Part shown: positions 44,338 to 44,657 of the stretch, piece after piece
Position numbering within the stretch: position 1 is the stretch's first letter
Layout: each line of letters begins with the position of its first letter
DNA from: Paragemmobacter kunshanensis
Lineage (GTDB): Bacteria; Pseudomonadota; Alphaproteobacteria; Rhodobacterales; Rhodobacteraceae
DNA length: 64,000 bases
Direction: 5' to 3'
Assembly (NCBI RefSeq): GCF_011059185.1
Contig: NZ_JAALFE010000001.1
Coordinates: 372,001 to 436,000 of the forward strand
Notes under the pieces: generated by a model
Told to the model about the DNA's origin: nothing
Database searches by the model: none
The model's input: only the letters and a program-made list of their open reading frames with translations
Translations under genes and position numbers: made by a program

Positions 44338-44657
44338 TGTGTCCTCCCTTTCAAACGATATCGAAATTATCCGATTCGCTAGGCTTCATCAGCCCATAAC
44401 ATCGCATATCATGTCAATTGTTTTCTTTTGCTTTCGTTTTTGGGCATTCGAAAGAAAAGCGGTTCCTCCGCCCAGCCCGGCATGCTGGCCCTGAAATGCA
44501 AGGCTTGGTAGCGGGATGTCCGTAATACTGCGTTGATTGCAGGTGCAGCGCCCATCTTGCGTGACTTGCGTTTTCCCGGTAAAACGCATCAAACGCAAGC
44601 AATCGAAATGTGCCAGCGCCAGCAGGGAACGCAGCGCCAGCAGTTCAAGGGGGGCCC
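44338..44657. other. Shared regulatory region between the divergent sugar operons
   Basis: This 320-base gap contains no gene. Its left part (44400-44460) is A+T-rich and holds the inverted repeat CTTTCG (44431-44436) / CGAAAG (44449-44454), likely on the transporter side. The right part holds a dense cluster of TTGCGT-type repeats, listed separately. The ribosome site of the isomerase gene is AAGGGGGG just before 44658. Confidence 0.6.
44556..44599. promoter_or_regulatory. Operator candidate: four CTTGCGT(TTT) half-sites upstream of the isomerase operon
   Basis: CTTGCGT occurs at 44556-44562 and again at 44565-44574 as CTTGCGTTTT. The reverse complements follow at 44581-44588 (AAAACGCA) and 44591-44599 (AAACGCAAG). 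The inner pair forms an 8-bp inverted repeat with a 6-base spacer and the outer pair a 9-bp one. DeoR-family repressors often bind such repeated TTGCG/TTTCG elements; the linked DeoR gene is the obvious candidate. Confidence 0.65.

Follow-up and report, generated by a model that had tools for sequence, protein, structure and literature searches.

A DeoR-family regulator and two predicted tandem operators between the divergent transporter and catabolic genes of a sugar cluster in Paragemmobacter kunshanensis

The DNA analysed here (the window, 64,000 nucleotides of contig NZ_JAALFE010000001.1 of Paragemmobacter kunshanensis) contains two divergent runs of genes separated by a 320-nt intergenic region. 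On the reverse strand lie the genes of an ABC sugar transporter (permease, ATPase, DUF2291 lipoprotein and binding protein, 40097..44337) and, as the last gene of the run, that of a DeoR-family regulator (39203..40009). The forward strand carries catabolic genes (44658..49354) encoding an isomerase with a Fucose_iso_C domain (44658-46124), two transketolase halves and an FGGY kinase. The gene for the DUF2291 lipoprotein (42675-43325) is located between those of the binding protein and the ATPase, and accompanies the transporter genes in many of the loci compared below. The regulator scored 57.8 bits with HTH_DeoR and 155.2 bits with DeoRC (Pfam cut-offs of 21 and 31.8), and thus has both the HTH and the DeoRC sensor domain of the DeoR family. 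Its best NCBIfam match was the AgaR equivalog NF040755, with 207.9 bits against a curated cut-off of 260, and it is therefore not assigned to that equivalog.

The binding protein (43390-44337, reverse strand) shares 77-80% identity with RHE_PF00037 of Rhizobium etli and is close to the structures 4ry0 and 5ibq. The title of 4ry0 names RHE_PF00037 as a ribose transporter protein, and PDB entry 5ibq was presumably solved with D-apiose. Neither sequence nor profile searches gave a PDB relative of the isomerase at E 0.001, and a literature search returned no paper on apulose with transketolase and isomerase, or on these PDB codes with apiose. The available text of one report describes D-apiose degradation clusters with aplK, aptA and aptB (PMC13001218); the present cluster, known here from its gene content, resembles them in having a kinase gene together with a transketolase split over two genes. 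D-apiose may tentatively be considered the substrate, as a lead only.

A sequence-only reading of the intergenic region had placed a probable DeoR operator at 44556-44599, made of two direct and two inverted copies of CTTGCGT within 44 bases. Three copies are exact, at 44556 and 44565 on the forward strand and, as the reverse complement, at 44593-44599, and the fourth (ACGCATC, 44584-44590) is imperfect. The starts are 9 bp apart in both pairs, within the 9-10 bases described, and the pattern lies 59-102 bases upstream of the isomerase ATG at 44658, as had been estimated. Taken as a palindrome with arms 44556-44577 and 44578-44599, it pairs at 17 of 22 positions. When the 320-nt region was shuffled 400 times with its dinucleotides preserved, a single shuffle reached 17 pairs or more, which makes such a palindrome uncommon by chance without being extreme. 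The 42-bp pattern has no second copy in the window or elsewhere in the 4.46-Mb genome, as would be expected from its length alone.

Orthologous loci (numbered with an L) were collected by scanning genome contigs with an alignment of nine isomerases, and the best 80 of 272 relatives were kept. Among these best 80 of 272, the DeoR gene (>50% identical) was carried by 61, and 19 were without it. A motif was learned by expectation-maximisation from 55 nonredundant intergenic regions of the 61 DeoR loci, the window being left out; three loci were not entered (L093, with a zero-length interval, and L054 and L101, removed by a length/letter filter) and three more were redundant. The resulting motif, TCGAAAgcAATCGAAA, is a direct repeat of two half-sites 10 bp apart, and at a width of 26 it shows three repeats in 10-bp steps, the third degenerate. 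Its best match in the 64-kb window (44593-44608, forward strand, 22.7 bits) lies partly beyond the interval of the CTTGCGT pattern; the second best (44422-44437, reverse strand, 17.2 bits) lies beside the transporter, and the next scored 10.4. When the intergenic DNA was shuffled 2000 times, 22.7 bits was never reached (maximum 18.5). Training on the 33 loci with an isomerase less than 80% identical placed the same two window sites on top with their order swapped (17.7 and 16.1 bits, next 10.5), with a motif LLR of 289 versus 46, 48 and 53 in three shuffled controls. When the whole genome was searched with the pattern AAWCGMAANNAAWCGAAA, composed with the window site in view, two matches with at most one mismatch were found, both in this intergenic region, and none with the reversed pattern.

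Two operators can be predicted from these matches. The isomerase-side operator, AAACGCAAGC AATCGAAA (44591..44608, forward strand), consists of two direct half-sites with a 10-bp step, as judged from motif score and conserved columns, and is preceded by a weaker third repeat, AAAACGCATC (44581..44590, forward strand), in which columns 44581-44583 and 44588 are conserved. The transporter-side operator, AAACGAAAGC AAAAGAAA (44422..44439, reverse strand), is the second-best match in the window and the sole other genome match within one mismatch. With their imperfect direct repeats in a 10-bp step, both have the form of the tandem operators of the family: in the available text on DeoR-family RhaR regulators (PMC3870299), each operator is built from two direct, imperfect repeats of 10-11 bp periodicity, and the Chloroflexus RhaR site, a TCGAAA tandem, was gel-shifted, the interaction being abolished by L-rhamnulose. 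Our literature search returned no paper on the DeoR family with direct repeats and TTTCG.

Alignment of the loci on the operator (55 of the 60 supplied) showed conserved columns at 44581-44608, extending 9 bases beyond the end of the reported pattern, and columns 44556-44580 hardly conserved. Half-site 1 of the window is off consensus at 44596, where its C is found in 7% of loci. The conserved half-site is TCGAAA-like, often with AA before it, instead of CTTGCGT, and the conserved arrangement is one of direct repeats in 10-bp steps, not of two direct plus two inverted copies phased by 9 bp. Palindrome pairing in the same frame averaged 5.4 of 22 in the 55 orthologs (maximum 10), and the best palindrome in any frame of a 72-nt stretch reached 14 of 22; by these alignments, the 44-bp palindrome is not a conserved element. 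Two CTTGC upstream of the operator were found in 0/55 orthologs. It is very unlikely that the four copies are themselves the operator, occupied cooperatively by DeoR on one helix face, since the left arm is unconserved and the 9-bp steps depart from the conserved 10, even though the copies exist, their palindrome is uncommon and one of the two left copies (44566-44573) is a fair match to an inverted half-site (10.4 bits).

The left part of the pattern seems to belong to a promoter. A predicted -35 box, TTGCGT (44557..44562, forward strand), coincides with the first of the reported half-sites, and a predicted -10 box, TAAAAC (44580..44585, forward strand), follows 17 bp past it, overlapped by the third operator repeat; the second copy, CTTGCGTTT (44565..44573, forward strand), which includes the inverted half-site match just mentioned, falls in the spacer. 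The arrangement TTGnnn-16..18-TAnnnn stands directly before the operator in 26 of the 55 orthologs (mean 1.2 and maximum 6 in 300 rounds of shuffling), the remaining 29 having no promoter by that rule, and at least one CTTGC lies within 34 nt before the operator in 28/55 loci, against a shuffle mean of 1.9. A general promoter scan, which applies a stricter rule, gave no sigma-70 site either in the region or in the window. As the promoter geometry recurs in 26/55 orthologs and paired CTTGC in none, the left CTTGCGT is best read as a -35 box (TTGCGT-17-TAAAAC), with the second copy as spacer. The best explanation of the whole CTTGCGT pattern is a composite of this box, the repeat within the spacer and two of the repeats that make up the true operator. 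On the transporter side, a predicted -35 box, TTGACA (44412..44417, reverse strand), comes directly after the operator, and its position relative to it is the same in the aligned closest relatives. The isomerase-side operator is predicted to overlap promoter elements as that of a repressor would, and such overlap of DeoR-family sites in Caldicellulosiruptor is taken as repression in the available text of PMC8579813. The reading of the pattern as an RNA element was rejected, because the single Rfam match (snoU82P, 16.6 bits versus a threshold of 42, reverse strand) is sub-threshold and located elsewhere, inside the isomerase gene, and the left half of the palindrome precedes the predicted transcription start.

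The isomerase-side site follows the presence of the regulator gene. Defined as a match of 13 bits or more in the 160 nt preceding the isomerase gene, it was present in 60 of the 61 loci with the DeoR gene from the best 80 of 272 relatives, a count that is not independent as 55 of these loci trained the motif. Ten of the 19 loci lacking DeoR have long flanks (at least 5.5 kb of upstream DNA) and are independent of the training; none of the ten had a site (highest score 9.1), and random 150-nt segments gave 1/1401. These ten loci also yielded a different motif, with an LLR of 5.1 per locus versus 8.8, which makes them a weak control. The exception among the 61 is L101, which has DeoR and no site near the isomerase (7.3 bits). 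The other nine loci without DeoR are on short contigs and were excluded from the 0/10 count; four of them (L042, L047, L063 and L103) score at least 13 bits. Since TCGAAA-like repeats are common to the family and occur with other DeoR-family proteins, a paralogue encoded elsewhere could be the binder of the tandem site instead of the neighbouring regulator, and the short contigs of L047 and L103 do show the site but no such DeoR gene. We regard this as highly improbable, because the site tracks the neighbouring gene (60/61 versus 0/10) and no further copy within one mismatch exists in the genome, as expected of a local regulator. In testing the earlier proposal on orthologous loci, then, the four-part unit was rejected and a probable DeoR operator of repeated half-sites in the shared intergenic region survived, conserved with the DeoR gene and differently delimited. 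Comparison of the loci shows the sites, their conservation and their tie to the DeoR gene, and at this level of evidence the operator pair is real and of DeoR type, wrongly delimited before.

Near the divergent binding-protein gene, a match of at least 11 bits was found in 24/41 loci, the other 17 scoring below 11 bits, and random 200-nt segments reached 11 bits in 4/1377 cases. In loci whose transporter genes are elsewhere, a strong site precedes the binding-protein gene (L084 and L098) or the DUF2291 gene (L113 and L114), and no site of at least 13 bits is listed before the transporter genes located behind the kinase in L107 and L112.

In the genus of the window, the isomerase is present in 5 of 19 genomes and this DeoR only in the genome of the window itself (G000); the other four loci (L031-L034) have different upstream DNA, in which the operator is absent by eye. 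L037 and L039 carry an isomerase ortholog about 91% identical, the other eight cluster genes not being found in their 16-kb locus. A metagenome-assembled genome titled Exiguobacterium profundum (L048) contains the whole cluster with an isomerase 87% identical, and its record name is therefore probably wrong.

The symmetry of the sites was also analysed. Half-site similarity was 0.98 for the direct orientation and 0.50 for the inverted one in register, rising to 0.81 at the best other register, which is due to TCGA being itself palindromic. Direct half-sites were found at offset -2 in 32/61 loci and at offset 8 in 52/61, and eight of the 61 had another one, at -12 or -11. Inverted half-sites within -40 to +50 occurred in 7/61 isomerase-side and 0/24 transporter-side orthologous sites; four of the seven are at offset -2, apparently L072, L076, L079 and L105. 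These four loci are compact, the DeoR and isomerase genes being direct divergent neighbours, and the region that the two genes share has overlapping matches on both strands. Considering the flanks only, an inverted half-site was present in 3/61 loci (shuffle mean 0.3, maximum 4).

In the window, each operator is accompanied by one extra inverted half-site, at 44566-44573 on the isomerase side and, as ATTCGAAA with 13.0 bits, at 44446..44453 (forward strand) beside the transporter-side operator. The inverted repeat CTTTCG...CGAAAG that had been described at 44431-44454 is indeed present there, and it is not a different element, as had been supposed: it overlaps the second operator copy. Two extra inverted half-sites arose in 17/2000 shuffles of the remaining region, mildly above chance. 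One reading is that both operators gained such half-sites in this lineage, which would have converted head-to-tail DeoR sites into sites of mixed orientation, direct plus inverted, able perhaps to accommodate a larger assembly of DeoR or to reinforce looping between the two promoters. This is unlikely, considering that the two extra half-sites lie at unequal distances from their operators and that inter-operator distances overall have no 10.5-bp phase. It is also very unlikely that the 44-bp inverted repeat is a separate, lineage-only site for a second regulator. The palindrome is rarer than chance and extra inverted half-sites do occur on both sides of the region, but the -35 box together with the repeats of DeoR accounts for its parts, and the search for close relatives of the region as a whole found none: of 394 family genomes, four matched the 320-nt intergenic DNA, one being that of the window and the other three matching in short stretches outside the operators.

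The two operators of the window are 171 bp apart. Over 22 inter-operator distances including that of the window, no 10.5-bp phase was detected (Rayleigh test, R 0.24, p about 0.27), and looping by helical phasing was rejected on this basis; among the 25 periods tried, p fell to about 0.001 at 9.25 and 9.5 without correction, and these two values are not trusted. Within six loci (L036, L038, L040, L041, L042 and L043, at 143, 122, 122, 133, 153 and 143 bp) the distances step by 10-11 bp, a phase shared neither by the window nor by the whole set; the transporter-side site of L042 is weak. A terminator-like hairpin lies between the operators (44457-44473, reverse strand), one being little more than the 0.4 expected by chance.

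According to these data, the intergenic region is most likely controlled by the local DeoR-family repressor through two operators at two promoters, a reading to which we give a probability of roughly 85%. DeoR would bind two tandem sites, 44422-44439 and 44591-44608, the latter accompanied by the weaker third repeat (44581-44590). On the isomerase side, the site would cover the predicted -10 box and transcription start, and on the transporter side it would adjoin the TTGACA -35 box, so that bound DeoR could block both promoters. Release of DeoR may follow when a ketose or a sugar phosphate from the pathway binds its DeoRC domain. As the deoR gene is the last of the transporter run, DeoR would also limit its own expression.

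The proposed arrangement is close to that described in the available text on RhaR of Rhizobium leguminosarum (PMC3870299), where transporter and catabolic operons diverge under a local repressor of the DeoR family, and the direct-repeat operators of the RhaR regulons, with the TCGAAA tandem of Chloroflexus, resemble those predicted here from sequence. The window differs in its pathway, which comprises a Fucose_iso_C isomerase, a split transketolase and an FGGY kinase and is not that of rhamnose, and in having the regulator gene last and not first in the transporter run. From the available text, AxgR and other DeoR regulons of Caldicellulosiruptor (PMC8579813) also combine a local DeoR-family regulator with a tandem-repeat site next to the operon of an ABC transporter; organism and sugars are different, and the comparison is one of layout.

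In this model the cluster is an ordinary DeoR-type local regulon, with a mechanism of a known kind. The comparison replaces a plausible but wrong operator with one that can be tested at base resolution, and it illustrates that a -35 box beside a tandem operator can mimic a four-part palindrome to the eye. It also assigns a DeoR-family repressor and two predicted operators to a sugar gene cluster found across Rhodobacterales and in other alphaproteobacterial records.
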